Below, piece by piece: positions 18,484-34,557 of a stretch of 64,000 bases of DNA. The translations under genes and the position numbers were made by a program. The stretch is from the NCBI GenBank assembly GCA_028554795.2, contig CM068842.1, positions 53,209,608-53,273,607 of the forward strand, in the 5' to 3' direction. Each line of letters begins with the position of its first letter. The first letter of the stretch is position 1. A model generated the notes under the pieces. The model saw only the letters and a program-made list of their open reading frames with translations. It searched no databases and was not told the origin of the DNA. Origin of the DNA: Sinohyriopsis cumingii (lineage: Eukaryota > Mollusca > Bivalvia > Unionida > Unionidae).

Positions 18484-18496
18484 AGTAGTTAAGTGG

Positions 18497-18756
18497 GATA
18501 CCCTAGGGACAATGGGACTTAGCATTAAAAAGACCCCTGGGACACTCTAGGGACAATGGAAATTTAACATGGAGAAAAATCGTGGGTCACTCTAGAGACA
18601 ATGGGAATTTAACATAGAGAAAAATCGTGGGTCACTCTAAGGACAATGGGAATTTAACATGGAGAAAAATCGTGGGTCACTCTAGGGACAAGGGGAATTG
18701 AACAAGGGGAATAGAGTTTGGACTTGTCTAGGGACAAGGGGAATTGAATATGGGAT
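18497..18756 (+). repeat. Tandem 45-bp units inside the left TIR
   Basis: Six related units each start with a CTCTAGGGACAATGG-like core (units 1, 5 and 6 are more diverged). The right TIR has four. The extra pair matches the AATCGTGGGTCA-ended unit, so copy number changed within one TIR. Confidence 0.9.
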
Positions 18757-18837
18757 TTTTTTTTTTTTTAAATTTTTTTTTTAAAAAAAAAAAGGGGTAG
18801 GCAATTGAAAGGCTATCTCTTTTCGAGAAATATGGCT

Positions 18838-18853
18838 GGCCCTGAAAAGGGCC
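18838..18853 (-). terminator. Histone-type 3' stem-loop, left TIR (after the 79-aa gene)
   Basis: The minus strand reads AAA-GGCCCTTTTCAGGGCC-AGCCA: a six-pair stem with a TTTC loop, identical in stem and loop to one form of the histone mRNA consensus. CGAAAAGAGA follows about 13 nt later, where the U7-binding element lies in histone genes. It begins about 24 nt after the stop codon of the gene at 18878-19117. Confidence 0.8.
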
Positions 18854-18877
18854 TTTGGCTTTCTTCTGCTTCTTCTT

Positions 18878-19117
18878 CTATTTCCTCCATTTCCTCATCC
18901 ATCCCCTAATCTTTCCCCAAATTCCTTTGTTCTTCCTTTTTTCTTTTTCAGGTAACCAGTCTGGGTGACCCATAGCCCTGAACTTCTCTTGTATCTTGAT
19001 CCAATTGTTGTTGAGTTTGTCAAAGGCCTCTTTTTCCTTTAAGTTTTCATTATCCTTTCGTTCTTTATTCCAAACTATACTCTCCACATACGCTAAGAAA
19101 CAATAAACAAAATCCAT
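18878..19117 (-). CDS. Small basic protein at the left end of the young Polinton (79 aa)
   Basis: I do not recognise the family. It starts with a hydrophobic MDFVYCFLAYVESIVW stretch, then a charged Lys/Glu-rich middle with a likely helix (FDKLNNNWIKIQEKFRAM), and ends strongly basic and Trp-rich (GIWGKIRGWMRKWRK). It is the outermost leftward gene and its 3' UTR enters the TIR, where a histone-type stem-loop stands. Its first 16 codons fall in the first unit of the 89-bp tandem array, so the start region is repeated upstream. The tail suggests nucleic-acid or membrane binding, but that is a guess. Confidence 0.6.
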   Translation of the reverse strand: MDFVYCFLAYVESIVWNKERKDNENLKEKEAFDKLNNNWIKIQEKFRAMGHPDWLPEKEKRKNKGIWGKIRGWMRKWRK

Positions 19118-19428
19118 AATCTACTATCCACACAATCGTACGTGAGCGGATACAAAACCCAAACTATACTCTCCACATACGCTAAGAAACAATAAACAAA
19201 ATCCATAATCTACTATCCACGCAATCGTACGTGAGCGGTTACAAAACCCAAACTATACTCTCCACATACGCTAAGAAACAATAAACAAAATCCATAATCT
19301 ACTATCCACACAATCGTACGTGAGCGGTTACAAAACCCAAACTATACTCTCCACATACGCTAAGAAACAATAGACAAAATCCATAATCTACTATCCACAC
19401 AATCGTACGTGAGCAGTTACAAACACAA
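19072..19428 (-). repeat. 89-bp tandem array, four copies, carrying a gene start
   Basis: Copies begin at 19072, 19161, 19250 and 19339, nearly identical. Read on the minus strand, each contains the ATG and first codons of the 79-aa gene plus upstream sequence with GTACGATTG. Only the copy nearest the gene continues into the full reading frame. The others look like duplicated promoter/start segments. Confidence 0.9.
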
Positions 19429-19559
19429 ACACACAAACACATACCCTCGCACTATGAAAAAAGAGTTAGTGTTTATAATCACACTACTCTACCTACACAC
19501 ACACACACACACACACACATTGGCAAATTAATAGTTATTTCTTTTCTAGAGTATTGGGT

Positions 19560-19575
19560 AGCCCTTAAAAGGGCT
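19560..19575 (-). terminator. Histone-like 3' stem-loop after the 102-aa gene
   Basis: The minus strand reads AGCCCTTTTAAGGGCT followed by ACCCA. The outermost stem pair is A-T and the loop ends in A, so it is a variant. AGAAAAGAAAT follows. It starts about 28 nt past the stop at 19604. Confidence 0.65.
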
Positions 19576-19603
19576 GTTTTTTTTGAACTCCAGATGCACC
19601 TAT

Positions 19604-19912
19604 CTAATGGTTGCACCTTCCTGGCCTGGCGCCACACACGCATCTTCTTCCCCAGTCTCCTTTCACCTTTCTTCTGGGGAGCGCAGAGGGAGGATGATTC
19701 GCTTCAACACCCCAATCCTCTGTCTCGGGAATATTGTACGACATCCTCTCTTCTAGTTTCTTTTCCTCCTCTTCCCTCTGTCTTCTCTCCTCCTCTTCGT
19801 TCTTCATTCTTTCCTCTTCTACTATAGCCTCCGCGGCCAGTTCATTTAATAGGCGCCTGACATATTCCAGATGTATCTGGAGTTCAAGAAGTTTGCTTAT
19901 TCTGTTATTCAT
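19604..19912 (-). CDS. Coiled-coil protein, paralogue of the 121-aa gene (102 aa)
   Basis: The family is unrecognised. The first AUG is at 19912 (MNNRISKLLELQIHLEYV). Residues 5-25 match the start of the neighbouring 121-aa protein in pattern (KL..L.(I/V).L..VR..L), so the two are probably duplicates. The middle is a Glu/Arg/Lys-rich helix likely to form a coiled coil. The C-terminus is basic with CVCGARPGRCNH. A TATAAAT lies about 50 nt upstream, and a motif shared with the next gene lies at 19974-20002. A histone-like stem-loop follows the stop. Confidence 0.6.
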   Translation of the reverse strand: MNNRISKLLELQIHLEYVRRLLNELAAEAIVEEERMKNEEEERRQREEEEKKLEERMSYNIPETEDWGVEANHPPSALPRRKVKGDWGRRCVCGARPGRCNH

Positions 19913-19973
19913 TCTTGTGTTGATCAATCAACAAGGGTAGCTAGACTGCCCAGCGAGTTTCAATTTATAGTGA

Positions 19974-20002
19974 AAGCGCGGACGTGATGGAAAACATCCC
20001 CC
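19974..20002 (-). promoter_or_regulatory. Shared upstream motif of the two coiled-coil genes (copy 1)
   Basis: On the plus strand it reads GCGCGGACGTGA, one or two variable bases, then GGAAAACATCCCC. The same block stands at the same distance (about 60-90 nt) before the neighbouring gene at 20851-20878. A TATAAAT on the minus strand lies between this copy and its gene. Confidence 0.6.
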
Positions 20003-20288
20003 TAAAAAACATAAAATTGATCTTACCTAGATCATAACCAAAAAAAACAACAACGCGCGGACCTAAAAGAAACACTCACTCAATTTTTTATGCTACCCAT
20101 CACTATTTTAAAATTTTTTTATAAATCACTTCAATAGACTATCCACATACACAAAGCAATCCAATCTAACTCCTAATCTACACCTCAAACACCAAAAAAA
20201 AAGACATCATTTTAATCTACTATCCATACCAACCTACTTAACCACTTACAAACACAAATACACAATCACATACCCTCACATTTTTAAA

Positions 20289-20340
20289 TAAAGAGTTAGT
20301 GTTTATTTTCACACTACTCTACCTACACACATTGGCAAAT
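20289..20340. repeat. Duplicated flank shared with 19459-19540
   Basis: AAAGAGTTAGTGTTTAT, then CACACTACTCTACCTACACA, then TTGGCAAAT occur here and at 19459-19540, beyond the 3' signals of the two paralogous genes. With the shared promoter motif this shows that a whole transcription unit was duplicated. The rest of 20003-20288 shows only AT-rich DNA. Confidence 0.8.
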
Positions 20341-20372
20341 CGATGGTTATTTCTTTTCTAGAGTATTGGGGT

Positions 20373-20388
20373 AGCCCTGAAAAGGGCT
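20373..20388 (-). terminator. Histone-type 3' stem-loop after the 121-aa gene
   Basis: The minus strand reads AGCCCTTTTCAGGGCT, then ACCCC, then AGAAAAGAAAT about 12 nt on. The loop is the canonical TTTC. It begins about 32 nt after the stop at 20421. Confidence 0.7.
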
Positions 20389-20420
20389 GTTTTTTTTGTT
20401 TGCTATGGCATTTTTTTTTT

Positions 20421-20786
20421 TTAGTTTCTAAGAATGCGATGTCCTCTGAGGATAGACTTTCTGGCGATAGGTCTGCTTCTTCGGAAAGAGAAGAAGAACT
20501 CTTTGGTGTCGATACGACAATCGACAAAGCCTCTGTCAGCTTCAGGTTGCTGCTGTTGCTGTTGTTGCTGCTGTTGCTGCTGTTGTTGCTGTCTCTGAAG
20601 TCTGTACTTCTCTGTCCATTCTTCTTTCTCCCTGTTCACTTCTTCTCTGAAGAGCTCTTCTATCAGGTCTTCAGTGATTTTTAGCATTCTCACATTCTCT
20701 ATTTCTTCTGGCTTCGGTATCAGACTGTGTCTGACCCTATGCAAATTCACGTAGGCTTCGTTGAGCTTAGCTAGTTTGGAGCACAT
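20421..20786 (-). CDS. Coiled-coil protein with poly-Gln tract (121 aa)
   Basis: The family is unrecognised. The first AUG is at 20786 (MCSKLAKLNEAYVNLHRV). A charged helical region (about residues 30-60) leads into a run of about 16 Gln encoded by CAG/CAA, then a basic tail ending HRILRN. The N-terminus is paralogous to the 102-aa neighbour. An alternative frame after the Gln run is open, but it passes through the stem-loop, so I prefer this frame. A shift within the CAG run cannot be excluded. Confidence 0.6.
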   Translation of the reverse strand: MCSKLAKLNEAYVNLHRVRHSLIPKPEEIENVRMLKITEDLIEELFREEVNREKEEWTEKYRLQRQQQQQQQQQQQQQQQPEADRGFVDCRIDTKEFFFSFRRSRPIARKSILRGHRILRN

Positions 20787-20850
20787 CTTCGTAGGAGGAT
20801 GAGTCGACAATGGATGGTTAGACTGGAAACAACCCGGTTCTTAAAGTCAA

Positions 20851-20878
20851 AGCGCGGACGTGAAGGAAAACATCCCCC
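20851..20878 (-). promoter_or_regulatory. Shared upstream motif of the two coiled-coil genes (copy 2)
   Basis: GCGCGGACGTGA and GGAAAACATCCCCC recur here as at 19974-20002, in the same orientation and spacing to the gene start. The factor that might bind is unknown. Confidence 0.6.
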
Positions 20879-20985
20879 ACACGGTTTTTGAGTCGCAACG
20901 TTTAGTGAGTGTCATGAGAGGGATAGTAAGAAATGAAAGAGCATCAATCCAACATTCTTATAGCTAAACAAAAGACAAAGGCATT

Positions 20986-21168
20986 TTTTTCAAAACACAA
21001 CATTTTTTATTCAAAAATCACTTAACACTAAACAACAACTCTAACATTTTTAACAATAATCCAACAATATAACATCAAACAATTTTTTCAAAACACAACA
21101 TTTTTTATTCAAAAATCACTTAACACTAAACAACAACAACTCTAACATTTTTTAACAATAATCCAACA
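20986..21168. repeat. Two direct copies of a ~97-bp AT-rich block with minus-strand AATAAA
   Basis: TTCAAAACACAACATTTTTT is followed by ATTCAAAAATCACTTAACAC in both copies. Read on the minus strand, each has AATAAA (21006-21011 and 21104-21109). These are the likely polyadenylation signals for the capsid gene cluster ending at 21218. Confidence 0.8.
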
Positions 21169-21217
21169 CTAAAAGTTTCTTCACTAGGTAAAGAGGGAGA
21201 ACAGTCTTCCATGGTTT

Positions 21218-22531
21218 CTAGTAATCTAGGATGACTTCTCTCAAACTGTTGATTTCTATGGTATTATCGAATTCTGCATACAGGATGACGTTCACCGTTT
21301 CATCAGGGTCTCGGTCTTTAAACTGAATTTCCACACGAATCTGGCCGGATTTTATAGGGTGGAAATGTCCCTCGTCGCTGCCTTGGTCTGGAGTGAAATC
21401 GAAAGCCCACAAAGCGTAGCCTCCTGCATAATCCTCGTACGTAATACCGTGACTGGTATTGGTTCCTAACTGTCCGGTGGCTTCGTACAGGGACAAGTAC
21501 GACCTCAAGTAATTCTTCTTGGTAAAGTCAGGTTCGAAAGGTCGGGTACACAAGGTCTTGCCATCGCGACTGACTTCGATTTTGGACACGCCAAAGTGTT
21601 GAAAGTAGAAAGGATTTTTTTCGGCAGTTCCATTGAAGGCTGTATTCTCGACGATACCAACGATCAAACGTTTGGGTAACTGTCCTTGGAACAGATGATC
21701 TTCGATCATGGATCGCTGTCCCTTGGGAATGGTGAAGGTTTTCACTTCCACGCGTCGTATGGGATACTTGGCGGTCGTTCTGCTCAACGTCTGACTGATG
21801 TCGTTTCCCACTTTAGGTAACACTTCCACACGGCGTACGTAGAGTCTGGCTTCTTGGATTTTGGTTTTGTAACCGTCACTATCAGCCAATAAATGGAAAG
21901 CGGTACTGCTACGATTCAGTCTCAGGCGGACATCCATCCCGTTCAGCAAATACTTTTCTTGCAACCACATGTCCAAATGCAAACGATCCATCAGTTCTAA
22001 ACTTGTGTCGGCTCCCGTGATTCTCTTTCTTCGTTCTAGAAATCCATCATTGTTGTCTTTCTTTTCATCAGTTTCCAATATTTCAAACTTGGTAGGTTCG
22101 TCAGCTTCCCATACCACACAGGCATTGAGATGAGTGTTCTTGGCATCTATTCCGTACGTCAAGAGATTTTCCAGGTAGACACGATAAGGGTAAGTATCCA
22201 TGCTGCTACTGACCAGTTTGTTATTCAAGTACAAGTCCACTCCACTGAACAAGGAATGCATGAAATTGTTGACGGGAGCTACTGCTTCATCGTCTATAGC
22301 ACCTCCAGTCTTATCTAGAATTTTGACTTTCAGGTACAAGTAACTGCTATTCAGATCGATGTAATCTTCGGGCTGTCCTTTGATTTCAAACTCGATGGGA
22401 GCGGAATCGGTCAGTGAGAAGACGGAGTGAAATTCCACCCACTGAGATTCTTGCATCGTCATCATCGTGGGGGGCATGGCAAACAGGTCCAGTTCCGTCT
22501 TGGAACAAGCGCAAGATTCTCGGTGCATCAT
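21218..22531 (-). CDS. Major capsid protein, Polinton double-jelly-roll type (437 aa)
   Basis: It matches the F54H12.2-like family of Maverick-derived proteins. Recognisable blocks are APIEFEIKGQPEDYIDLN, SYLYLKVKI, PVNNFMHSLFSGVDLYLN, TYPYRVYLENLLTYG and a C-terminal IRVEIQFKDRDPDETVNVIL. This family is the Polinton major capsid protein with a predicted double jelly roll. I start it at the ATG pair 22526-22531 (MMHRESCACS), 17 nt after the pX-like stop. The same frame is open upstream through the pX region into the penton gene, so it could be read as part of an 892-residue frame; I treat that as accidental or mutational. It is intact. The old Polinton lacks this gene. Confidence 0.9.
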   Translation of the reverse strand: MMHRESCACSKTELDLFAMPPTMMTMQESQWVEFHSVFSLTDSAPIEFEIKGQPEDYIDLNSSYLYLKVKILDKTGGAIDDEAVAPVNNFMHSLFSGVDLYLNNKLVSSSMDTYPYRVYLENLLTYGIDAKNTHLNACVVWEADEPTKFEILETDEKKDNNDGFLERRKRITGADTSLELMDRLHLDMWLQEKYLLNGMDVRLRLNRSSTAFHLLADSDGYKTKIQEARLYVRRVEVLPKVGNDISQTLSRTTAKYPIRRVEVKTFTIPKGQRSMIEDHLFQGQLPKRLIVGIVENTAFNGTAEKNPFYFQHFGVSKIEVSRDGKTLCTRPFEPDFTKKNYLRSYLSLYEATGQLGTNTSHGITYEDYAGGYALWAFDFTPDQGSDEGHFHPIKSGQIRVEIQFKDRDPDETVNVILYAEFDNTIEINSLREVILDY

Positions 22532-22548
22532 TTTTTTTGTCTCTTTTC

Positions 22549-22965
22549 TCAATAATCGAAAACGTCTAAGTCTCGAACGGTTCTTCTTTTCTTGGCCTTT
22601 CTCGCTTGAAGTCTGGTGAAAGGGTGTTTTCTTCGTCGTCTCTTTCTGCCTTGTCCTTGCTGAATGCCTGACTCGGTAGCGTGCAGGGCATTTATAGGTG
22701 TCTCTCGGTGACCCAAAATGTCTTCGCCCGTTTGCAGCAAGACATTTTTGCCTGCCCTCATGAAGGCTTCTTTGGGGTTTTGTTTGTCGATGATGACATT
22801 TTGGAGAAATTCTTTGCCTTGCGTCAGTGCCGCATCTTTCAAGGCGTGCAATCCGCGTGTCACCATCGGTTTCAACACCGGGGCCACCGAACGAAAGGCC
22901 GATTTTAACATGTCTCCTAAGCCGTGTCCTCGCTGTCGAGCAACCCCTCGGTACACTGGATACAT
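22549..22965 (-). CDS. pX/pVI-like basic virion protein (138 aa)
   Basis: It starts MYPVYRGVARQRGHGLGDML, then KSAFRSVAPVLKPMVTRGL, an amphipathic helical region, and a tail with RKRRRRK and KKRR. The GHGLGDxL...P.LK pattern is shared with adenovirus pX-like and Polinton core or minor virion proteins. These probably bind DNA or line the capsid. It lies between penton and major capsid genes, the usual position. Its whole length is overlapped by an open penton/MCP-frame reading. The old copy at 40046 has a stop at codon 6. Confidence 0.75.
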   Translation of the reverse strand: MYPVYRGVARQRGHGLGDMLKSAFRSVAPVLKPMVTRGLHALKDAALTQGKEFLQNVIIDKQNPKEAFMRAGKNVLLQTGEDILGHRETPINALHATESGIQQGQGRKRRRRKHPFTRLQARKAKKRRTVRDLDVFDY

Positions 22966-23896
22966 GACTTACTGACGAGTCGTGAGAGAACCGTTTTCGA
23001 AAATGGAGTTTCACCGTGACTTTTCCTTTGGTGAATGGAATATTTTGTCCCAGATCTCCTTTTATAGCAATGTTGACCGTGTCCAAATACGACTTACTGA
23101 CAGGCAAATAGTGAGGATGTACAAATTCGCGGTGGACGTGGTAAGTGTTTCCACCTTCCTCGTCAGTGTTCGTGGCAGAATCCACTTTGAAAGGAATGAC
23201 ACGCAGTAACGGTACGGAGGTGTGTCCCACCACGTTGTACTCCACCACATCGGAATACACGAACATCAAATTCAGTCCTTGGTTCAGTTCTACCGGGGCA
23301 CGAAATAACTTGCTAAAAGACTCGTTGTCGTAAACGATGGCTAATTCGTTTTTCTTGAGCATGGCCTTTCTCATGTCCATGTCTCCGCCAAACATGTCAA
23401 ACAATTCAGGACAAAATAAAATGGACATGATTTTACTTCGTTCAAATTTCATCAAGAAGCGACGAGCTGTTTTGTGGTATTCCATGGTGACACTTTTGTT
23501 GACATGCTCCAAAGCTTTCAGAAACACGACATTAAACCTGGAGGCTATGGTGCTGACCAAATGTTGACCACTAAAATAATAGCCTGGGGGAATGAACAAG
23601 TGATAGGTGGTGTACTTTTGTGTACGGGTTTTCTTGTCATATTTGACATTGGAATCCATCCACTGTTGCATTTGCTCGTCATGAACTTCCACATCAAAAA
23701 AATTTTGATTGGGAAGGACATTGAGGACTTGGGTCGGGTGAATGATTTCTACTAAAGCCACTTCCCAATGGGCTTCGTGATCTAACTGGATGGCCTGAGG
23801 TAATTTGGCCGTGTAACAGCACAACGTGTTCTTGGGAAACACCTCCATGGAACTGTCACTGGGTAAAGTTAAGTAAAATTGGCTTTGGTGACTCAT
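22966..23896 (-). CDS. Minor capsid (penton-like) protein
   Basis: It begins MSHQSQFYLTLPSDSSMEVF. Typical blocks are WEVALVEIIHPTQVLNV, GYYFSGQHLVSTI, VVEYNVVGHTSVPLLRVIPF and QNIPFTKGKVTVKLHFRKRF. This is the Polinton penton homologue (single jelly roll). Its ATG overlaps the TGA of the upstream membrane-protein gene (ATGA), an overlap kept in the old copy. I end it where homology stops, near the RKRF block; no stop codon exists there, and the frame continues through pX into the capsid gene. An indel near 22975-22990 relative to the old copy may have removed the stop. Confidence 0.85.
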
Positions 23897-24306
23897 AATT
23901 CCAGAGTTCTGTGGCTGTCCGAGGGGTTAGTGGACGTCAGAGGCGTGTCTCTGTCTAAAATGGGGTTCTGGTTGTGGTTGAAGTGGTGACTGGCACTGGC
24001 ACTGGACACAAGGTTCCCGGGGTTCCCGTTCGAGGTGAATTTCAGGGAGGGATTAGGAAGCAGGTAACCGATGCAACTGCTCAATAAAATGGTCCACAAT
24101 TGTTTGTCTCCTTGTTGCAAACTCAAATTGGCGATGGCTGCCCCGATGACACAATACACCACGAAGATTTGGCAGAAAAAGACGATTTGCGTTTTAGGCA
24201 CACGTTCTCCACACCACACCCACAAGGGTTGTTTTTGTAAATCTTGCACAGAAGAACTAGGTGAAGGAGGAGTGGTCGACGTAGCTGCGTCTGTGTGAAA
24301 AGGCAT
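23893..24306 (-). CDS. Small membrane protein between integrase and penton (137 aa)
   Basis: The AUG is at 24306 (MPFHTDAATS). A Ser/Thr/Pro-rich N-terminus is followed by LQKQPLWVWCGERVPKTQ, then a membrane segment (IVFFCQIFVVYCVIGAAIANL), a second weaker hydrophobic stretch (LWTILLSSCIGYLL), and a polar tail. The function is unknown. Relatives of this segment recur in the old Polinton (38756) and in the third relic (near 54940), so it is a conserved family gene. It starts 5 nt after the integrase stop and overlaps the penton ATG by 4 nt, which points to coupled expression. Confidence 0.75.
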   Translation of the reverse strand: MPFHTDAATSTTPPSPSSSVQDLQKQPLWVWCGERVPKTQIVFFCQIFVVYCVIGAAIANLSLQQGDKQLWTILLSSCIGYLLPNPSLKFTSNGNPGNLVSSASASHHFNHNQNPILDRDTPLTSTNPSDSHRTLEL

Positions 24307-24311
24307 GATGG

Positions 24312-25445
24312 TCACGTCTTTTTATAGTCGATGACTTGCGAAGCGTCGATCCAAGAATCAAAACTGGGTGGATATCCTTTCCAACGTACTTTGACTTCTT
24401 TGACACGTCGTTTGCCCACTTTACGGGTTCTGCGTTCGAGAATGCTTTCGATGTCGTACACGTCGTCTTCTTTTTTGGTGACACGTTGTAACTCGGGCAA
24501 ATAAAACGTTCCTTTGAGCACTTCTCCGTTCATGTCTTCCAATTTATAGACGGCAGGATGACGGCCATGCACTCGTCCAGTGACGCGAAACAATTCGGTC
24601 GTCCAGTTAGGTAAGTAACCTTTGTCGAAAGTGCGTTTGGTTTTGCCAATGCGCACCCAATCTCCTACGGCCAACATTCCACTTTTCTTGGGGACAGCCC
24701 TCGTCGGAGACGTACCAAACAGGCGCTCAAACACCAACACTTCGTTGTCGGGAGTCACGTCTTGCGGGGCACGTCCGATGCTTCGATGGTAAGATTGGTT
24801 GTACGCTTGCACCAGGTGCGGTAAGATGTCGATGTACTTCAGAGTGTGGTGATGCGTAAAATATTTCCACATGCGTTCTTTCAAAGTGCGTTGAAAACGT
24901 TCCACGATGCTGGCTTTGGTTTCGGGATTCTCGGTGCTAAAAAAATGAATGTCACGTTTCTTTAATTCTTTTTGGAAAGCTTGGTTCAGAAATTCGGTGC
25001 CTTTGTCCGTTTGCCATCGAAGAGGGTGACGACCGCTTTGTTTCAACACTCGTTGCAGGGCTCGCACTAACTCGCTGCTCGATTTGGAAGTCAAGGGCAC
25101 GACCCAGGCAAATTTGGAAAAGACGTCGATGACACAAAACAAATATTTGTAGCCACGATTGTAGCTGGCCAAATGAGAGACATCGGCTAAATCGGCTTGC
25201 CATTGATGATCGATGCCTTCCACTCGGGTGCGACTTCTGGCAAACTTGCGTCGAATGGGTTTGTGTAAAGTGTAGGTAGCTTGTTCTTGTAACCATCGTT
25301 GCACTTGAGGTAAACGGAGACTTTTCAGTCGCGTTTTGGCAGCACGATACAATTTTTGAACTCCTGCGTAACCTGCAGGATGGGAGGGATCGTAGTAAAT
25401 GCTGGTTGTGTTTTGTGTTGGTTGGTGTGTTAATAAGGCACCCAC
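24312..25445 (-). CDS. INT: Polinton integrase with C-terminal chromodomain (no AUG)
   Basis: This is a retroviral-type DDE integrase related to the F54H12.3 family. N-terminal YYDPSHPAGYAGVQKLYRA; catalytic core with D in WQADLADV (about residue 85), D in WQTDKGTEF (about 147) and E in KASIVERFQRT (about 182). C-terminal chromodomain: DDVYDIESIL, then VRWKGYPPSFDSWIDASQVI. It would insert the element and make 6-bp duplications. Oddity: the frame opens after a TAG and has no AUG before the core; the first usable codon is a GTG at 25445. It overlaps the upstream gene by 16 nt in the -1 frame. Start, splicing or frameshifting therefore remain unresolved. Confidence 0.9.
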   Translation of the reverse strand: MGALLTHQPTQNTTSIYYDPSHPAGYAGVQKLYRAAKTRLKSLRLPQVQRWLQEQATYTLHKPIRRKFARSRTRVEGIDHQWQADLADVSHLASYNRGYKYLFCVIDVFSKFAWVVPLTSKSSSELVRALQRVLKQSGRHPLRWQTDKGTEFLNQAFQKELKKRDIHFFSTENPETKASIVERFQRTLKERMWKYFTHHHTLKYIDILPHLVQAYNQSYHRSIGRAPQDVTPDNEVLVFERLFGTSPTRAVPKKSGMLAVGDWVRIGKTKRTFDKGYLPNWTTELFRVTGRVHGRHPAVYKLEDMNGEVLKGTFYLPELQRVTKKEDDVYDIESILERRTRKVGKRRVKEVKVRWKGYPPSFDSWIDASQVIDYKKT

Positions 25446-26065
25446 TCTTGGAGGATGCTACTCTTTTTCTCTTGGGGTATTTTCTTGGATTGCAATGCTT
25501 TGCGTGTGCGACCGGCAATAGGTGTTGAAGAGGAGGAGGATGTCTGAGCGGGGGATATCGGTTCTTGTTTCACTTCTGTATTCACTTCTGTCTTCACTTT
25601 CTTTTTCTCTTGTGATGAAGAAGGGGTGGCCATCATCTTTTTAATCCATCCAATTCTGGAGGTAGGTGGTGTTGTTAACTTGCGTACTTTTTCTGGTGGA
25701 GTTTGAAACCCTTCTTCTTCTTCTTCTTTTCCTTTTTCTGTCTTGGTCACTGGTACTGGTACTGGTACTGGTGATGGTGCTGGACTTTTCATCAAGGTCT
25801 TAAAATCTTTCAGACTGGGTAGAGCTGTTTCGTCTAAAGCTTTCTGGTGAAAGAGTTGCAGTCGTTGGAAGAGTTGACCGTACTTTTGCGATTTTTCTGT
25901 TTCGGACAAATCTTGGCGATCCATCAAGGACTGCAATTCATGTTGTAACTGGGACATCTCGCTCAAATGGGGATTGGGAGGTAAATGCGGGGTGTGTTGT
26001 TCTTGCCACCGATGGTATTCCATCCATCGTTTGTAAGGCACTAAAGCTAGTTTTCGTCCTTCCAT
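25430..26065 (-). CDS. Polinton protein upstream of integrase, Pro/Lys-rich (211 aa)
   Basis: It starts MEGRKLALVPYKRWMEYHRW. A helical N-terminal half (LQHELQSLMDRQDLSETEKS) is followed by a Pro/Val repeat (SPVPVPVPV), an acidic run and a Lys/Ser-rich tail ending LQEWVPY. A small gene with a KLALVP.-type start before the integrase is common in animal Polintons, but I do not know its role. TATA-like GATAAAAGG lies about 45 nt upstream. Its last codons overlap the integrase frame. It is absent from the old copy. Confidence 0.7.
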   Translation of the reverse strand: MEGRKLALVPYKRWMEYHRWQEQHTPHLPPNPHLSEMSQLQHELQSLMDRQDLSETEKSQKYGQLFQRLQLFHQKALDETALPSLKDFKTLMKSPAPSPVPVPVPVTKTEKGKEEEEEGFQTPPEKVRKLTTPPTSRIGWIKKMMATPSSSQEKKKVKTEVNTEVKQEPISPAQTSSSSSTPIAGRTRKALQSKKIPQEKKSSILQEWVPY

Positions 26066-26113
26066 GGGGTTGTCAGGGGTCGATTCTGAGATCTTGGAAC
26101 TTCCGAGGCCCTT

Positions 26114-26500: not shown

Positions 26501-26558
26501 CTTTGAGTCTTCAGGAGCACCAAAAAACACTGATACCCGACTTGGTCACAGGCCTTTT

Positions 26559-27518
26559 TTATACTGGAACGCGTCGCCACTGATTGTCTTTACGTCGTAT
26601 TAGTTTGAGGACAGGCATGACACGTCGTGCAGGGGTACGTAACGGACTAAATCGAGCCAGTTCTTGCTTGGACAAATCCAGTAAACTTTGTAACATGCCC
26701 GATCTTTCATGGACTTTGATTTTGGGAGAAGGTACTTTGTGAGCAGCAGCCACTGCCACTAAATTGGAAGGTCCTGCCACTGGGGAAGTTCTTTTGGGGG
26801 TCATCAACGGAGAAGTTCTTGGTGTGATCAACGTCTCCAAGTACTCTTCAGTTCTGGGTGTCATTAACGGAGAAGTGGACAAACGTGAGGATGCCGGAGA
26901 CGCAGTCACCGCCGTGGTGGCAGATCGTAGTTTGCGAGTGTAAGGTTGCGTCCTGGCCGAAGTGCCTCTCTTGCGACTAGTTTTCTTCTGTGGACTTTTC
27001 TTTTTCTAGGGACTTTTTTTCTGTCTCTTTTTGTGGGGGCTTCTTTTCTTTTTCCGGGGTGGTGGTGGTGTCTGGTCAGAGGAGGGTCCTGCCACTGGAG
27101 AAGTTCTTCTCTTTGGGGACCTGGTCTTTTTCTTCTTCTTGGGACTTCGTTGGACTTTTGTCTTGGGGATAACTTTGGGGGCATTAGGATCCCATCTTAA
27201 AAGTGAGCGAATGATGACCCCTTCTAGAGTACCGCTCCCTCCAGGTTTCAAAATGATTTGTTTTTTGGTTTGAGTGTCGATGCGGGGATCGGCCAGTTGG
27301 ACCAAAGCGACTTTGTTTCGATCGAAAAAGCGTTTGGTTTGATGAGGAATCTGAATGATTCCTTGGAGTAATTGACGTGCCGTCACCGTGAACCATCGTA
27401 AGACTTCTTTGAGACTAGCTTCTAAGACACGAGCTCGTGTTTGTGGATTTTTTTCTCGACTGATGCCATACAAGGCACGAATCAATTTGACGGGAAGATG
27501 CGACTGAAGGGACGTCAT
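26559..27518 (-). pseudogene. Basic Polinton protein gene split by an in-frame TAG
   Basis: The AUG at 27518 (MTSLQSHLPVKLIRALYG) follows TATAAAAA at 27557-27564. The N-terminal half is paralogous to the 128-aa protein: LIRALYG..., KEVLRWFTVTARQLLQGIIQ, KKQIILKPGG. A Lys/Arg/Ser/Pro-rich tail follows. TAG at 27006-27008 ends it after 170 residues, but the same frame continues 148 codons with the same basic style and a repeated SPVAGPS motif, ending RRKDNQWRRVPV at 26559. The downstream part has no AUG at its own start, so I read one gene with a nonsense mutation. A 170-aa product may still be made. Confidence 0.65.
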
Positions 27519-27592
27519 GTTCACACTGTGTGAGACAGACGAAAAAGGGTCTGAGGTTTTTATAGATTTTTTGATGGGGAGTGAAATGAAGT

Positions 27593-28315
27593 CTAGGACG
27601 GAGACATGTACAGGACAGGCCCTCCGTCTTGGCACCAGTGGTGAAACAAGTGGGTACGAAATCGCAAATCCTCGGGGGTCGTAGGTTTCAAATCGACGAG
27701 TAAATAGGCGTGTGGCGTTTGAGTGGCATCGTCGTACGCCTGAGTCAGCCAAGGCGTTCCTAACTGTTTGGCTAAGACTTGCACTTGCGATTTATCTCGA
27801 GGGCTTTTAAACAAGACCACGTAATGCGCATTGAGACTGATGGTGCGATGGGCTTTACTTTGTTGAAACAAATTTTGGGTAATGTAAACGACACTGGCAT
27901 TACGGTGATGCCCTTTGCGCGTGAACCACAGTTTAATTTCTTCTTCGTCTTCTCCTAACATGTCGTCGAAAATGACCAAATGGGTTTGACGGGAGTCAGA
28001 GACGATGCCGTCGTCTTCTTTAGGAATGCCTTCCACAAACACGATGGAATCGCCTTGACTTTCTCGCAAGAGGCTGTACGCCGATTGCCACTCTTTGTAA
28101 CACCACACGATCCGTTGAGGTGGCCGATCGATCAAATGATGTTTATGTTCGATCAAACGTTTGACGAATTCGGTTTTGCCTGAACCGCTAGGTCCAGCAA
28201 TGAGCATGTTAAAGGGATGGCGAAGATACAAAGCCTCCCAACTGGCACGATCTAAGTGTTCGTCGATGACTTTGACAGTAGAGGAAGAGGGAGCAGAGAC
28301 AGCAGAGGTAGCCAT
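27593..28315 (-). CDS. ATP: FtsK/HerA (A32-like) genome-packaging ATPase (240 aa)
   Basis: Walker A is IAGPSGSGKTEFV (about residues 38-50) and Walker B is HLVIFDDML, followed by ITQNLF, a sensor-type motif. This is the packaging ATPase of Polintons and related dsDNA viruses, which would pump DNA into the capsid. I start at 28315 (MATSAVSAPSSS) because TATATAAAC at 28357-28366 lies about 45 nt upstream and the old copy lines up there. The gene is intact to VLYMSPS. The old copy is truncated at its 3' end. Confidence 0.9.
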   Translation of the reverse strand: MATSAVSAPSSSTVKVIDEHLDRASWEALYLRHPFNMLIAGPSGSGKTEFVKRLIEHKHHLIDRPPQRIVWCYKEWQSAYSLLRESQGDSIVFVEGIPKEDDGIVSDSRQTHLVIFDDMLGEDEEEIKLWFTRKGHHRNASVVYITQNLFQQSKAHRTISLNAHYVVLFKSPRDKSQVQVLAKQLGTPWLTQAYDDATQTPHAYLLVDLKPTTPEDLRFRTHLFHHWCQDGGPVLYMSPS

Positions 28316-28356
28316 TGTGTGAGAAATGTCACTTGTGACACGAAAAACAAACAAGA

Positions 28357-28366
28357 CAAGAGTTTA
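28357..28366 (-). promoter_or_regulatory. TATA box of the ATPase gene
   Basis: TATATAAAC on the minus strand, followed by CTCTTGTCTTGTTTG, is kept in the old copy as GTATAAAAACTCTTGTCTTG near 36210. It decides the ATPase start at 28315. Confidence 0.6.
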
Positions 28367-28375
28367 TATACTTTT

Positions 28376-28774
28376 TCAGAACACGTTTATTGAATGTTTT
28401 TTTTTCAAACATGAATACGAAAGACAAAAAATACATAAAAGCCAAAGGCTTAAGTACAAGAATAAAAGGCACATGATAACCATGAACGTGGAATAAACAC
28501 AAGTGTCTATACAACATGTTTTGGGTAAAGTTCTAACCAGTTCTATAGTAGGGGGTAAGGTCACACAAGTGTCCTCCCGAAAGGGTCTTTCAGGCCTGTC
28601 CACGACAGTCCCGTCCTGGGTGACGGGTTCTTCTGGCACCATCACTAACACGGGTTGAAAAGTAACTTTTTTCCTTGAATAACTCTCGTGCATACTGGGC
28701 CACCTCTTGGGTCCAAGCCAAACCAATCTGGTTTCTTCTTCGTCAACGACATGGTCAGTTACTTCAATGAACAA
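28376..28774 (-). CDS. Small C-terminally anchored membrane protein
   Basis: The open frame reads KKVTFQPVLVMVPEEP, a Pro/Glu linker, then a C-terminal membrane segment (STFMVIMCLLFLYLSLWLLCIFCL) and a short Lys tail. The start is uncertain: this frame has no AUG until 28693, while an upstream AUG near 28752 opens another frame (MSLTKKKPDWFG), so an indel is likely. AATAAA at 28386-28391 overlaps the final codons. TATATAAAAAGG at 28801-28812 is the likely promoter. An orthologue lies at 35817-36180 in the old copy. Function unknown. Confidence 0.6.
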   Translation of the reverse strand: MFIEVTDHVVDEEETRLVWLGPKRWPSMHESYSRKKVTFQPVLVMVPEEPVTQDGTVVDRPERPFREDTCVTLPPTIELVRTLPKTCCIDTCVYSTFMVIMCLLFLYLSLWLLCIFCLSYSCLKKKHSINVF

Positions 28775-28804
28775 TGAACTATTGATCTTGCCTAGGGTTC
28801 CTTT

Positions 28805-31800
28805 TTATATACCGACCAATACCGACGTGACCGTTTGGGCTGTCACGTAAGCCGCAATGATGACATTTCCAAAAGGGTTGTCTTGTACAAAGTCCAGATC
28901 TTCTTCGTAATTGACCAAGATCAAATCCTCTCGAACGACGTCCACGTGTTTCATGTATTTGGTTTTGTCGTGAATCATCTGGAAGTAGCGGGAAGGTTCT
29001 GTCAAATATTCCGTCTTGGGTAAACACGGTCGTTGTGCCATTTTACCCCACAAGCAATTTAACATCACTTTGGCAAACGATCGCCTGCCTTCGTTTTTTT
29101 TCGATGTGGTCTAAAGAGATGCCTTCTTGTTCGTAGTATTTCTCTTTGAATTGTATTTGGTCTTCGGGAGTGTGACACCAGGAAGGATAGCCGCTGGCTT
29201 CTTGCTTCAGTTTCAAAAAGGCATCCACGTAGTCAGCGAAAATGCCTTTCTGAGTAGGGTCACCCTTGTGGTACTGTTGTGTCTTGGGAAAGTGGCAAAT
29301 TTCGTACACTTCTAACAGTTGGTATCCCATGTCCAGAGCTTTGAACAATTCTACGCTGACCCAGGTTCCCGTCAAGGCCCGTTCTTCCTGGCTGTGATGA
29401 CAAGGCTGATCTTGGTTGCACGTTTCGGCACAAGTACGGCACAAGGGAAACATCAGTTTGCCTTGACAATGGTGAGGTAAGACGGGATGGTATAGGTTCG
29501 TGGGAGGCAAAACTTTGCACTTGATCAAGCCTTCGTATTGTCGAATGTTTTTCAGGTCGATGTGTTCCGTCAGCAATTGCGGGTGCCCTACAGGAAAGCG
29601 ACAATATTTGCACACGTAGGGATACAGCGAACACACGTCCAAGTATTTGATTTCTTCTCCTTTCTCTTCGTCGGCTTGGTACAGCAAACAGGTGGCATTG
29701 GTCCTTCCTCCGTACAAACTATCCCTCGGGTTCAGTGGGTCCATGAACTGGTAACTTTCCACGAGGCGTTTAAACTCGGGATCGGTTTTCATACGGTGAT
29801 CGTATTCGTGTTCCCACATTTCCACCACTTGGTATCCTTGCTGTTCTAACTTTAGGCGCCGCTGACAAGTGTCCTGGTACAAGTCTTCCATGGTCCGTTG
29901 TAAAAACTGATTTTTAGTGTCACGGTCAGGGTAGCAGACGGGACATCCGTGAAATAAGCAACCGTTAAACTCGTACACGATCTTGGGGTTTTCTAAGTCC
30001 CAGCCATCGACCGAATACGTTCCGATGGTCTTTTCGCCTCCTCCGTTGCGGGCATGCTGAATCCATTTGTTTTCCTTGTCGCACAAGTAATGTAACCAAC
30101 GTAGGGCTTTGACCGAGTATTGACGCTTGACATAGTTGGTCATTTGAGGACTGATGACAGCCACGGTGTTTTCAGGCATGAATCGTTGGCGGTACACTAA
30201 GGAACACGCTTTGGCAATGGTGCAAGCTTCTTTCAAAGGATCGACCCCTCCGTGTTCCATGAACAGTTCTCGAAATTTTCTACAGCAACGTCGTAAAATG
30301 TCCACGTCGGAACGACAATACTTTAACATTTCTTCCTGAAAGTCGAAAGGGTCAGAGGCGTGAGCCTGGTACCAAGCGTAGAAAGCTTCTCGTTGTTCGG
30401 TACGCATGTTGTCGGGGTCGTAATAGTGAGCCTCAGGCAAATGGGGTAGAACGGCGTGTTGATTGGCTTCTGTATTGAAAAAGTGAGGAAAGTACCCTTT
30501 AGCCATTTCTGTCATTCCAAACGTTTTAGGCATTCGACTCAAAGGCATGGCCAAGTAACTCATCGAATCTTTAAACTGCACTTGTCCCACTTGCATGAAA
30601 ATGATTTTGGCTCCGTTCAAAATCACTTTAGGACGTTCGGTGCCATGTTCCGTATAGTACCTCAAAAGAAACTGTCCATCGTATCCGGAGAAATTGTGAG
30701 CCATCACCGTGGCATGACGATGACAATCTCCGTAACGTTCGATGTCCTCTTGGCTCCACGTCTTGTCGATGGGGTCTAAGACCCATTGGGCAAAATCGGC
30801 TAACGTGTTTGGTCCCCGAAAGATTTTTTCACGCCCTCCGGGAATCTTGCTGCAGTGAGGGCAATGACTGAAGATAGGTTCTTGAATGCACTTCTCGCAC
30901 GCTCGATGAGCCACGCAGAAATTAGGAATGTGAATGCCGGTCTCTTGCATGCATTCGAAATCGAAAAAGATGAAATTGCCTTTCTTCTTGTGACCGTCCT
31001 CTTTCTCTGGTGGGGGTTGGTATTTTTGCACGTAGCATTGGTGTTCCAAGTCCACGATGCGGTGACAAATGTGACATTTTTTCTTTCCTCGACATACGTG
31101 TGCCTTGGCATTATTGGTAAGTATGCCTTGTCCACAGGTAGGGCACAATCTCAGGAGTTGACAAGCACATTTCTTCTGTGAACCTTGCGTCTTCAAATGT
31201 TGTTGGTAACAGGTAGGGCTGACAAACGTGCGCAAACAAGTTGAACAAGGCACTGGTTCTTCGCTCAGACAGGGTGGAGAGGCCAAACGTCCTGGGCATT
31301 TCCATCCACAATGCTTGTGTTGCTCTCGATTGTTATAACCATAATCACATTTCTCACAATAATAACCGTATCGCAGGAATGCAGTGATACTGGTAATGGT
31401 ATCGAAATGGTCATCGTGATGATAAAGGTGAATGTATTTTTCGTCCTTAAAATCTTGGCCTCGAAACAACAGAGACCCACGCATTTCTTGAGGGTGCACT
31501 TTCAAGGTGTAGCGTGGAGCTAGGGCATCTTGCAATTTCTGCATCTCAGGAATGCCACAGGGTGTGTCTTTGGACAGACCAGCTTGTTGCAACAGGAGTT
31601 CTGCTTCGTTTCGTTGTTTGGCTCGGTTCGATTTTCGAATGTTCTCCCAGGTTCTTTTCCATTCTGTCGTGTCGTTCTTGTTGGCATAGGTTCGTCCCAC
31701 CACGATGGCTCGGGCTAAACACATCTGGTCATGAGGGTTGTTAATTCGGACGAGACTTGTTTTGGTGTTGCGAAGGTCGTCCACCAATAACATCTTTTTG

Positions 31801-32372
31801 CGTCCAGTCCCTTGAGGAAGAGAGACGTGAGCCATTTTCAGTGTGGATTTACCATCGGTGATGTCAAACTGGTCATTAGATTGTTGTACGTGTTGAATCT
31901 TGTCCATGACTTTGGAAGGGGTTAGTTCTGCGGGTCTGCTAAACTCGATCCAAACAGGGGATTTCAAACCGTCGTGATCTATGGATAGTGTCAAGCGATC
32001 GTCTTCTTTGGGTTGACATTGTCGCTTGAGTGCGGTGAGCAAAGAATCCCACATCTCGGTGATAAACCCTTCTGCTTTCTCCAAGGGTACGTCGGCCTTG
32101 AAATCTTTAAACTTCACCGTGTATTTGTAAGCCGTGGTTCTAAATTTTCTAGAGGAGCGCTTTTCCGTCTCTCGAATGGAATAGTATTTTTCAGGGTTGA
32201 CTAAGGGTGACGAACTTGGTTTAGAGGTTTCAAATTCTGGTTCACTCATGTCCTCTTCAAAATCACTGGCATGAATTTGTGCCAAGATTTCAGCTCTGGT
32301 ACGAGGCGATAGATCACGTTTCTGCCTCTTACTTTCTTCTTCTTTCTTCTCGAATGAATGGGATCGTTTCAT
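28805..32372 (-). pseudogene. POLB: Protein-primed-type DNA polymerase B, frameshifted and lacking motif C
   Basis: This would copy the element's genome. The main frame (32372 to 29043, 1109 codons) starts MKRSHSFEKKEEESKRQKRD. A CX2C-rich zinc cluster spans about residues 339-447. Exonuclease motifs: FIFFDFEC (I, about 470), NFSGYD (II, about 560), YCRSDVDIL (III, about 685). Palm motif A is DVCSLYP (about 912). At an A8 run (29094-29101) the frame shifts. Motif B (VMLNCLWGKM) and PKTEYLTEPSRYF continue in another frame to 28805. There the sequence jumps from NVIIAAYV almost directly to the last residues VLVGI and a stop, omitting the motif C segment that the old copy retains. Polymerase activity is therefore not expected. 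Confidence 0.9.
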
Positions 32373-32420
32373 CTTGAGTGCAAAACGCCAAATGACTCAA
32401 GTTTAAACACCATAGACTAA

Positions 32421-32455
32421 TTTATAGTCATGGCAGACCAGCGTATATAAAAAGC
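32421..32455. promoter_or_regulatory. Divergent TATA boxes between PolB and the zinc-knuckle gene
   Basis: Minus-strand CTATAAATT stands near 32421-32428 for PolB, and plus-strand GTATATAAAAAG stands near 32443-32454 for the zinc-knuckle gene. The latter is very close to the AUG at 32467, so the second AUG at 32485 may be the start used. Confidence 0.5.
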
Positions 32456-32466
32456 CGAGTACAACG

Positions 32467-33061
32467 ATGGAAGAGACTACCCAGATGGAACGTTTCGTCA
32501 GAGCTTTGCGAGGGTTCATTAAAAAATTCTCTTCAGACCAGCCGACGGACTACTCTCCTTCCTTTCGAGATAAAAGTCAAGATACTTGCTATATCTGTCA
32601 GAAGAAAGGGCATTGGTCTTCAGAGTGTCCAGACCGTCAAAAAAGAAAAAAAAAACAGGGGCTAAAAAAGACAAAAGTCAAGATACCTGTTATTATTGTA
32701 AAGAAAAAGGACATTGGTCTCCAGATTGCCCAAAAAAGAAACAAGAGGAGTCAGAAGAAAAGAAGGATTCTTCAGAAGAAGAGAAGGATTCTTGGAAGAA
32801 GAGAGGGATTCTTGGAAAGAAGAGAGGGATTCTTGAGAGGAAGAAGAGGAAGAAAGAAGACAATTCTATTTAAAAGAAGCAAAGAAACAGGAGAAGAAAA
32901 GAAGAAGGGAAGAAAATGAGGAAAAAACGGTGAAGAAATTCAAAAAACAGAGACTAAACAAGGAGAAAGAAGAAGTCAATGAACTTTTAAAGTGTTCTGT
33001 GGTGAATTGTGAATTGGATTGTAAAAAATGGATAAAAGAATACATGAATGATATAAGGTAA
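32467..33061 (+). pseudogene. Retroviral-type CCHC zinc-knuckle protein, frameshifted
   Basis: It starts MEETTQMERFVRALRGFIKK. A first knuckle, CYICQKKGHWSSEC, fits CX2CX4HX4C. After an A-rich run near 32641-32658 a second knuckle, CYYCKEKGHWSPDC, lies in another frame, followed by Lys/Glu repeats. A third frame gives the end VNELLKCSVVNCELDCKKW to TAA 33059-33061. The old copy has matching pieces, so the gene is real but broken at least twice. Knuckles like these bind single-stranded nucleic acid in Gag proteins and host RNA-binding proteins. It reads opposite to most element genes and faces the coiled-coil gene tail-to-tail. Confidence 0.65.
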
Positions 33062-33215
33062 GTGTCTTTGAGTTTTGATTTTAAAATAAGAAGCTACACT
33101 CGCGCACTCATACAAAAAAGACACGTACTATAAGGGTAAAATGGTTTGATTTTTTTTTGTTGATTTTTGAGTTATTGGCAAATTGAAATTGTATTTCTTT
33201 TCGAGAAATGTGGGT

Positions 33216-33231
33216 GGCCCTGAAAAGGGCC
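33216..33231 (-). terminator. Histone-type 3' stem-loop after the 183-aa gene (best match)
   Basis: The minus strand reads AAA-GGCCCTTTTCAGGGCC-ACCCA: stem, TTTC loop and both flanks match the histone consensus. CGAAAAGAAAT begins about 14 nt after the stem. It starts about 25 nt past the stop at 33257. The intervening 33062-33215 region holds nothing else I recognise. Confidence 0.85.
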
Positions 33232-33256
33232 TTTTTATTTTGGTGTAGGGGTGAGT

Positions 33257-33808
33257 TTAACCAATCAACTTTAACTGCCTTAAGCCTTTGCCACGGCCGA
33301 GGCCTATTTCTGATGATTGGGTTGAAATCACTAAGGGTGGTACGATAGGCTTAGTCACAGGGTTGGCGTGTTTAGCTCGGGAAGGTCGTATTCTCTTCGG
33401 TCGTGATAAAGAAGTCTGATACATTTGTTTCAGACTTCTTAACTCCGCTAAAATGTCCAACAGTACCGTAGCCGTTTGATTTTCACCCTCTTGTTTCTTT
33501 GCTGCTACTTCTTCTTGTTGTTGTTTTTTTCTTACCTCTTCTTGTTGCTGTTGCTGTTGCTGTAGGAGAAAAGCTTGTTCCGCTTCCTTTTGTCGTTGCA
33601 TAAATTTCTCCAATTCTTCTTTCTGTCTCTGTCTAAAATTCTCCACTTGCGGTAATGAAGAAGGTAACGAAGTTTCCGGAACAAATTCTTGCGAGGTAAG
33701 AAAATCCACAAAATCCCAATGTACCTCTTCTGAAAGTAAGTCCGGGTTCCCTTGGGCAGTCTCCCCTGCTGGTGCACCCCAATGGATCATTTTCTGAGTT
33801 TCCGTCAT
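33257..33808 (-). CDS. Coiled-coil/poly-Gln protein with basic GRGKG tail (183 aa)
   Basis: It starts MTETQKMIHWGAPAGE, then has a short FVDFLTSQEFVP block, a Glu/Lys/Gln coiled coil (about residues 55-110) with a seven-Gln run, a leucine-rich helix (LLDILAELRSLKQM), a basic RPKRIRPSRAKHANPVTKP stretch, and ends GLGRGKGLRQLKLIG. The tail resembles the GRGKG motif of histone H4 tails; this is only a short similarity. It diverges from the Arg-rich gene across a 219-bp promoter and ends with a canonical histone stem-loop. Family unknown, but it is kept in the old copy. Confidence 0.7.
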   Translation of the reverse strand: MTETQKMIHWGAPAGETAQGNPDLLSEEVHWDFVDFLTSQEFVPETSLPSSLPQVENFRQRQKEELEKFMQRQKEAEQAFLLQQQQQQQEEVRKKQQQEEVAAKKQEGENQTATVLLDILAELRSLKQMYQTSLSRPKRIRPSRAKHANPVTKPIVPPLVISTQSSEIGLGRGKGLRQLKLIG

Positions 33809-34027
33809 GTTGAATCACTGTCACATAGATTGACTGCACACAAGCGCTAACGAATCTATATAGGCCACGTGACGTCACAGACTGCTCTCTTCGGATTGGA
33901 TGCGAGCTGACTGAATTTTGTAACGCGTGTTCGGATTGGTGAATGAATTCAATCCGTTTCAATCCTTCCTGTACCTATAAATAAGCGCAGTTCACTGCAT
34001 TGATTCACCTATTCTCGTCGCTTCAAG
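33809..34027. promoter_or_regulatory. Histone-like divergent promoter
   Basis: Between two genes transcribed apart there are minus-strand CCTATATAG (33856-33864), an E-box/CRE block CCACGTGACGTCAC (33865-33878), two ATTGG (inverted CCAAT) at 33895-33899 and 33935-33939, and plus-strand CTATAAATA (33975-33983). Each TATA is about 45-55 nt before its gene start. TGACGTCA and CCAAT motifs are conserved in the old copy at 12960-13192. Confidence 0.7.
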
Positions 34028-34264
34028 ATGTGGACCACAGTTGAGTCATCCACCTTTGTGTCTTCCATGATGTTTAGGACGGACATGCTCATGTATGTCA
34101 GGTCCAAGTGGACTGTTGTTGATAGGACAGATACTAGTCAATGGATGAGGAGAGTTTACATAGAAAGACAAGGATGTCTCAAGAGGGTACTTGTGTATGG
34201 ATCGGCAGTTAGAAGGAGTTTAAGAAGAAGAAGAAGAAGATGTGACAGATGCCATCTATGTTAA
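34028..34264 (+). CDS. Small Arg-rich protein at the right end of the young Polinton (78 aa)
   Basis: MWTTVESSTFVSSMMFRTD is followed by MYVRSKWTVVDRTD, RRVYIERQGCLKRVLVYG and a protamine-like tail with RRSLRRRRRRCDRCHLC. It is transcribed outward, its 3' UTR lies in the right TIR, and a histone-type stem-loop follows 24 nt after the stop. The Arg run suggests DNA condensation, comparable in style to viral core peptides, but no family is recognised. An orthologue with the same start survives in the old copy. Confidence 0.65.
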   Translation: MWTTVESSTFVSSMMFRTDMLMYVRSKWTVVDRTDTSQWMRRVYIERQGCLKRVLVYGSAVRRSLRRRRRRCDRCHLC

Positions 34265-34281
34265 TATTAATATTAACATAA

Positions 34282-34557
34282 ACCCAAAGGCCCTTTTCAG
34301 GGCCAGCCATATTTCTCGAAAAGAGAATGACTTTCAATTGCCTAGCACATTTTTTAAACTTTAAAAAAAAAAAAATCCTATGTTCAATTCTCCTTGTCCC
34401 TAGACAGACCCAAACTCTATTCCCCATGTTCAATTCCCCTTGTCCCTAGAGTGACCCACGATTTTTCTCCATGTTAAATTTCCATTGTCCCTAGAGTGTC
34501 CCAGGGGTCTTTTTAATGCTAAGTCCCATTGTCCCTAGGGTATCCCACTTAACTACT
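34282..34557 (-). repeat. Right terminal inverted repeat of the young Polinton
   Basis: Inverted copy of 18484-18858. It has four of the CTCTAGGGACAA units against six on the left, a few substitutions, and the same stem-loop at the inner edge. Confidence 0.95.
34289..34304 (+). terminator. Histone-type 3' stem-loop, right TIR (after the 78-aa gene)
   Basis: CCCAAA-GGCCCTTTTCAGGGCC-AGCCA, with CGAAAAGAGA about 13 nt downstream. Stem, loop and 5' flank match the histone consensus. Confidence 0.8.

Follow-up and report, generated by a model that had tools for sequence, protein, structure and literature searches.

Replication-dependent histone mRNAs are held, to our knowledge, to be the only protein-coding mRNAs of animals that end in a stem-loop of the histone type. 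Their metazoan 3' ends, represented in Rfam by family RF00032 and followed by a histone downstream element (HDE), have a 6-bp stem, a 4-nt loop of the UUUC/UUUA type, an A-rich 5' flank, an ACCCA-like 3' flank and a GAAAAG element at +14 or +15 after the stem, all behind short open reading frames (ORFs) with short 3' untranslated regions (UTRs). According to PMC7026596, the 5' end of U7 base-pairs to the downstream element, in which a purine core (AAAGAG in mouse H2A) is important, and the CPSF73 cut site lies between the stem-loop and that element. Polinton/Maverick elements and adintoviruses, the second closest system, carry genes for PolB, an A32-type ATPase, capsid proteins and a chromodomain protein, with AG-ended terminal inverted repeats (TIRs) and a 6-bp target site duplication. 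Here we describe a Polinton in 64 kb of DNA from Sinohyriopsis cumingii (assembly GCA_028554795.2, 2.9 Gb; contig CM068842.1, 53,209,608-53,273,607, forward strand; the whole stretch is called the window) that shares these hallmarks and whose terminal genes carry the listed 3'-end features, as do the histone genes of the host. Unlike known genes with such ends, they encode no histones and belong to a virus-like mobile element; unlike the described Polintons and adintoviruses, for which the parts of the literature consulted name no histone-type gene ends, this element has them. The terminal genes are very probably built like the replication-dependent histone genes of the host, with mRNAs that would be processed by U7 and SLBP, lack a poly(A) tail and be confined to S phase, while the capsid mRNAs would be polyadenylated. 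This reading is based on the observation that every terminal gene of the window ends in a module of host-histone make that is kept across diverged copies.

The element, which we call the young Polinton, occupies 18484..34557 and is bounded by AG-ended TIRs (18484-18862 and 34280-34557), the tips of which read AGTAGTTA at 18484 and 34557, with the 6-bp duplication TGCGGC flanking both sides. It encodes a viral-type PolB (PF03175, E 8e-39), an A32-type packaging ATPase (PF04665, E 6.5e-8), a chromodomain protein and capsid proteins, the last recognised by their homologues. The young Polinton is nested in an older relative (the old copy). Since the right arms of the two are only ~65% identical, the old copy is better regarded as a separate subfamily than as an aged twin. 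Five ORFs form the terminal genes: g79 (79 aa, 18878..19117), g102 (102 aa, 19604..19912) and g121 (121 aa, 20421..20786), all on the minus strand, followed at the other end by g183 (183 aa, 33257..33808, minus strand) and g78 (78 aa, 34028..34264, plus strand). A Pfam scan of these five ORFs found no histone family.

The initial annotation had placed hairpins behind the five terminal genes and degraded counterparts of two of them in the old copy, and all seven were found there, each with a sense-strand match to RF00032. The highest score in the window belongs to the stem-loop of g183 (33216..33231, minus strand; 41.2 bits, E 9.6e-9), which together with that of g79 (18838..18853, minus strand; 35.6 bits) exceeds the gathering score of 34 bits. 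The remaining three young sites are under that score, with E-values from 2.8e-6 to 1.5e-4 against all Rfam families: g78 (34289..34304, plus strand; 33.9 bits, just below it), g102 (19560..19575, minus strand; 31.1 bits) and g121 (20373..20388, minus strand; 29.3 bits). In the old copy, the orthologue of the g78 stem-loop (12682..12697, minus strand) has one unpaired position and scores 24.9 bits (E 0.0064), and that of g183 (13864..13879, plus strand) has a weaker stem but keeps AAAGAG, scoring 21.4 bits (E 0.14). The sense assignment of these two sites rests on same-strand matches to g78 and g183.

The spacing of these modules is nearly fixed. The gap from stop codon to stem is 24, 28, 32, 25 and 24 nt in g79, g102, g121, g183 and g78, respectively, exactly the predicted range, and a GAAAAGA block, expected about 12-14 nt further on, starts at +14 after the stem in six of the seven sites (including g79) and at +15 in g121. 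A TTGCC(A/T)A block lies ~34 nt (30-35) past the stem. In the 3' flank, ACCCA is exact in three of the seven sites, with AGCCA in the pair at the TIRs, ACCCC(A) in g121 and ACTCA at 12682. The purine core reads AAAGAG exactly in three sites and AAAGA in all seven, which fits mouse U7 pairing as given in PMC7026596.

We rejected a chance origin of these hairpins on the basis of shuffle tests and model specificity. An oriented 21-base pattern has seven matches in the window at up to three mismatches, with 0.00 expected from 100 shuffles, and of the six perfect GC-rich hairpins with 6-bp stems and 4-nt loops in the 64 kb, five are the young sites (mean 1.2 and maximum 4 in 30 shuffles). A covariance model built from the seven 60-nt Polinton modules and no histones (R1) scores its own modules at 56-81 bits (80.7 for g79, 77.1 for g102, 72.5 for g121); no other site in the window, and none in four distant Polinton loci, exceeds 15.2 bits. 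The five sites are nevertheless not five separate observations: 18838 and 34289, at the inner edges of the left and right TIRs, are two copies of one TIR-internal segment with an identical stem-loop region, and 19560 and 20373 share a duplicated 147-nt 3' block (80% identical), so that the five hairpins, all of them present as annotated, amount to only about three independent events.

The host histone genes allow a direct comparison. They are arranged in tandem units spaced ~8.27 kb apart (from the 150 of 662 candidates that were scored), and in two units H3, H4, H2B, H2A and H1 each have an RF00032 match of 35.0-39.4 bits. Four of the five host stems read GGCCCTTTTNAGGGCC, as is common among the Polinton sites. 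GAAAAG begins at +14 in three genes and at +15 in two, four genes have a TGCC/TGTC block at +35 to +37, and the gap from stop to stem is 27-38 nt, compared with 24-32 nt in the young genes. The comparison with host histone 3' ends, proposed as a check in the initial annotation, thus came out strongly in its favour for stem type, GAAAAG spacing and the TGCC-type block. R1, which contains no histone sequence, recovered 10 of 10 host histone sites in the two units at 43.6-60.1 bits, and the Polinton module reaches 82% similarity to the host H2B 3' end over 57 nt.

These data also bear on two simpler explanations. If the hairpins were Polinton elements at the level of DNA, such as a cruciform or a signal for replication or transposition, their likeness to histone ends would be accidental, and the identical pair at the inner edges of the TIRs would be expected. 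Three more copies are internal and stand behind genes, however, and the loop, the flank, the fixed-distance GAAAAGA and the sense orientation are single-strand features that a DNA palindrome does not need. Placement behind genes in the sense strand only and a module of the same make behind host histone genes, each of which speaks against a DNA element, were both observed, and upstream promoter blocks match as well (see below). We therefore consider a DNA-level role highly improbable, and a palindrome confined to the TIRs was rejected in view of the internal copies and the host histone match. Equally little credence is given to stem-loops that merely stabilise or terminate transcripts with no part for SLBP or U7: any 3' hairpin can protect RNA, but here the loop and flanks fit the histone consensus, and a U7-type element stands at a fixed spacing in all seven sites of the window.

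We then extended the comparison to the rest of the host genome. Among 589,472 first-look candidates for RF00032, 75 were scored, all of them above the gathering score, and 74 of the 75 fetched regions match terminal genes of the element by protein while none match the four core histones. The sole region with no protein match (L059) carries the left-arm promoter motif described below. Because these regions were picked by a stem-loop, we counted the other genes in them, which had not been picked by their own stem-loop, once each, leaving out protein alignments that miss the last 20 residues (g183 in L017 and g78 in L031). A sense stem-loop follows 71 of these 72 unascertained ends (26/27 for g183, 25/25 for g78 and 20/20 for g102), in 69 of the 72 at 18-36 nt past the stop codon, bearing out the expected placement relative to stops in other copies; for two g102 ends, a different reading frame makes the gap negative (-41). 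Copies of g183 picked by protein gave the same result, with a sense stem-loop in 20 of the 20 that have fetched 3' ends. The best 150 of 28,531 first-look g183 candidates, which were scored, are 96-100% identical, a likeness to be expected from such a selection, and few of those listed have internal stops, which suggests a large recent expansion of the g183 gene in the host genome.

The conservation in these copies is concentrated in the module itself. Over 71 second sites (49 minus, 22 plus), the stem-loop and GAAAAGA have a mean major-base frequency of 97-99%, compared with 61% (minus) and 55% (plus) in the 30 nt upstream of the stem-loop. The set left out plus-strand second sites scoring below 30 (L035 and L053), and its plus-strand group is mostly left arm, apart from L017 and one L065 site. 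The first stem pair is G-C in five of the seven window sites and A-U in two (g102 and g121); in the other copies too, it is G-C or A-U according to gene class, with both sides changed. The divergence in the data comes from the old copy, at 65% identity, and from the mixed copies of L005-L079.

The likeness to histone genes extends to the 5' side in the left arm. The g102 promoter block (19965..20002, minus strand) contains 24 nt identical to a block upstream of host H2B and a 14-nt run common with H1. A second upstream block of g102 (20052..20072, minus strand) is identical over 21 nt to one upstream of host H4, and the g121 promoter block (20841..20878, minus strand) is 92% identical to that of g102 with a 13-nt run common with H2B and H1. 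The matching host blocks lie at 2593-2616, 5993-6018 and 1764-1784 of histone unit L110, upstream of H2B, H1 and H4, respectively. The H2B-type block starts 86 nt ahead of the ATG in g102 and 108 nt in H2B, and the H4-type block 160 nt and 81 nt in g102 and H4; in host H4, H2B and H1 the start of the GTCCGCGC block lies 81-108 nt ahead of the ATG, and in g102 and g121 it lies 76-160 nt ahead. There are three copies of the core GTCCGCGC in the window, all in sense and all ahead of g102 or g121; unit L110 also has three, likewise all in sense, before H4, H2B and H1. When loci were sorted into arms by their terminal-gene protein matches, with L059 placed in the left arm, GTCCGCGC occurred 57 times in sense and never in antisense in the 23 left-arm loci (22 of which have it), and not once in the 52 right-arm loci.

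These shared upstream blocks suggest that a histone promoter element exists in this lineage. The sequence ACGTCCGC resembles what we take to be the HINFP motif. According to PMC5706932, the H4 subtype-specific element is a binding site of HiNF-P, without which NPAT, the activator of histone genes in S phase, is not recruited. Compared with this system, host H4, H2B and H1 and the Polinton genes g102 and g121 have GTCCGCGC blocks in common; in the Polinton the block precedes non-histone genes of a mobile element, and the binding factor is only a candidate. Together, the host-like 3' ends and the promoter blocks of H2B, H1 and H4 type argue for the proposal in the initial annotation that these virus-like genes tap the histone pathway. 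A fuller version, which we consider moderately likely, is that the early genes imitate histone genes at both ends, with the promoter in the left arm and the poly(A)-less 3' end in both arms, a whole histone cassette having been captured and its coding part replaced; transcription and processing would then take place in S phase, possibly within the histone locus body, and the capsid mRNA would have a poly(A) tail.

The two genes with these promoter blocks differ in their products. Between 19440-20060 and 20270-20940, the regulatory blocks of g102 and g121 are shared and the proteins unrelated, as though one coding sequence had been swapped for another within a cassette. We rejected paralogy of the two proteins, which do not align, even though the 5' and 3' regulatory blocks are duplicated.

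Poly(A) signals were sought at the ends of the terminal genes and in the late gene cluster. Within 250 nt, neither AATAAA nor ATTAAA was found for g79, g102 or g78, in g121 such a signal occurs only downstream of its stem-loop, and in g183 an AATAAA precedes it. In contrast, the capsid gene 3' region (20982..21137, minus strand) has two AATAAA and no stem-loop. Along the late cluster, which runs leftward from PolB to the capsid gene, AATAAA lies in sense at 28386, with two more past the capsid gene (21104 and 21006), and the R1 scan found no stem-loop in this cluster.

From the mechanism given in PMC7026596 and the presence of AAAGA in all seven sites, we strongly infer that the mRNAs of the terminal genes are processed by U7 and SLBP, coupled to S phase and tail-less. 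SLBP would bind the hairpin, the U7 small nuclear ribonucleoprotein would pair with the GAAAAG element, and CPSF73 would cleave between the two. The resulting mRNAs would have no poly(A) tails and would be made and kept mainly in S phase, their transcription and processing perhaps taking place at the histone locus body. Capsid mRNAs would be polyadenylated, and the type of mRNA end would thereby separate an 'early', replication-coupled gene set from the late set. The element is thus probably plugged into the host gene programme linked to DNA replication.

Several observations weigh against this reading. In g183, an AATAAA lies 18 nt past the stop codon, just ahead of the stem-loop, and the same is seen in 17 of 20 other copies, so that an alternative route through polyadenylation is open. 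A stem-loop is absent from one unascertained g183 end (L031). The stem shows little covariation, the first pair being the only one with a two-sided change, and the conservation partly reflects common descent, because many copies are recent and alike. The core GTCCGCGC is missing before host H3 and H2A in unit L110, and the right-arm promoter has no histone block. The RF00066 search for host U7 matched none of the 65 candidates scored (of 801,960) and is uninformative, since the control was also unmatched. Finally, RF00032 found nothing in a third Polinton of the window (~54.2-57.7 kb) at E up to 10 and nothing in four distant Polinton-bearing loci (0/4 at E up to 5).

The AATAAA ahead of the g183 stem-loop would also suit a passively carried module that the element took from a host histone gene together with its flanks, the mRNAs ending by polyadenylation. 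The 82% similarity to the H2B 3' end and the histone-like promoter blocks, which fit the capture of a whole histone cassette, agree with this as well. Passive carriage does not account for a module that is conserved while the adjoining upstream 3' UTR drifts, that follows each of the five terminal ORFs in the window and persists in a 65%-identical subfamily, and that is retained in the 3 of 20 g183 copies with no AATAAA. Capture from a histone gene is the likely origin of the module and is compatible with active histone-type processing; passive carriage with polyadenylated mRNAs we regard as improbable.

The distant Polintons limit how far the finding can be generalised. The third Polinton of the window is much more distant, its ATPase, penton and capsid matches being at 24-38% identity. 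The four distant loci came from a capsid-family search of genome contigs, which returned four Polinton-bearing contigs filed under metagenome-assembled genomes (MAGs). No long TIR-like inverted repeats were seen in these contigs, and their terminal genes may therefore be missing, which makes the RF00032 negative there a weak one. On the distant Polintons with no RF00032 match, we rejected histone-type ends as a property of all Polintons. IMG/VR had no match for the stem-loop pattern, PolB, the g183 family or the capsid family, and the genome contig collection none for the g183 family. One of the distant contigs, from a Bathymodiolus symbiont MAG (L002), has a twister-P1 ribozyme-like match at 11644-11708 near a Polinton capsid gene, which at 28.9 bits is below the gathering score of 67.2.

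The terminal proteins also have matches in other sequences. By protein, g79 matches 14 of the 75 host loci (two over 16 residues only) and g102 matches 20 of the 75. For g121 there are 9 database homologues, 7 of them with 68-76% identity over 88-95% of the length; g183 has 20, and g78 is 59% identical over 70 aa to the old copy. Tandem repeats of 89 nt (18981-19512, ~4 copies, 97% alike) lie upstream of and overlap the start of g79. The divergent promoter region between g183 and g78 (33809..34027) has a TATA-like box on each side and no GTCCGCGC element.

In the late gene cluster, a part of the major capsid protein (21218..22462, minus strand) has 1030 homologues at E <= 0.001, and the named relatives among the 120 matches listed include Mercenaria, oysters and a Thiodiazotropha MAG. 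A single frame of 892 codons (21218-23896) covers a penton-like protein, a stretch overlapped by a 138-aa ORF and the capsid protein. When the element was checked for an integrase, the chromodomain at 24312-24872 was the sole Pfam find, and the adjoining ORF had no Pfam match; a 186-aa piece matches L001, one of the distant Polinton loci, at 51%.

This type of mRNA end formation is known from histones, and its use by a virus-like mobile element appears new within the literature consulted. A search of open-licence literature by title and abstract start found no virus or transposon using histone-type 3' ends, and the accessible text of PMC11071296, on Polintons and adintoviruses, has no 'stem-loop' and uses 'histone' twice, for histone-like protein genes. 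One consequence concerns annotation: element sites reach 45.6 bits with RF00032, compared with 39.4 bits for host histones, and because nearly all of the 75 scored matches belong to the element and most score higher than the host histones, using RF00032 as a marker of histone genes could mislead annotation. If the proposed processing is true, the early genes of such elements would go undetected in RNA-seq of poly(A)-selected RNA, SLBP and U7 would have natural non-histone substrates, and the element would exemplify a new means by which viruses or transposons couple their expression to host DNA replication.

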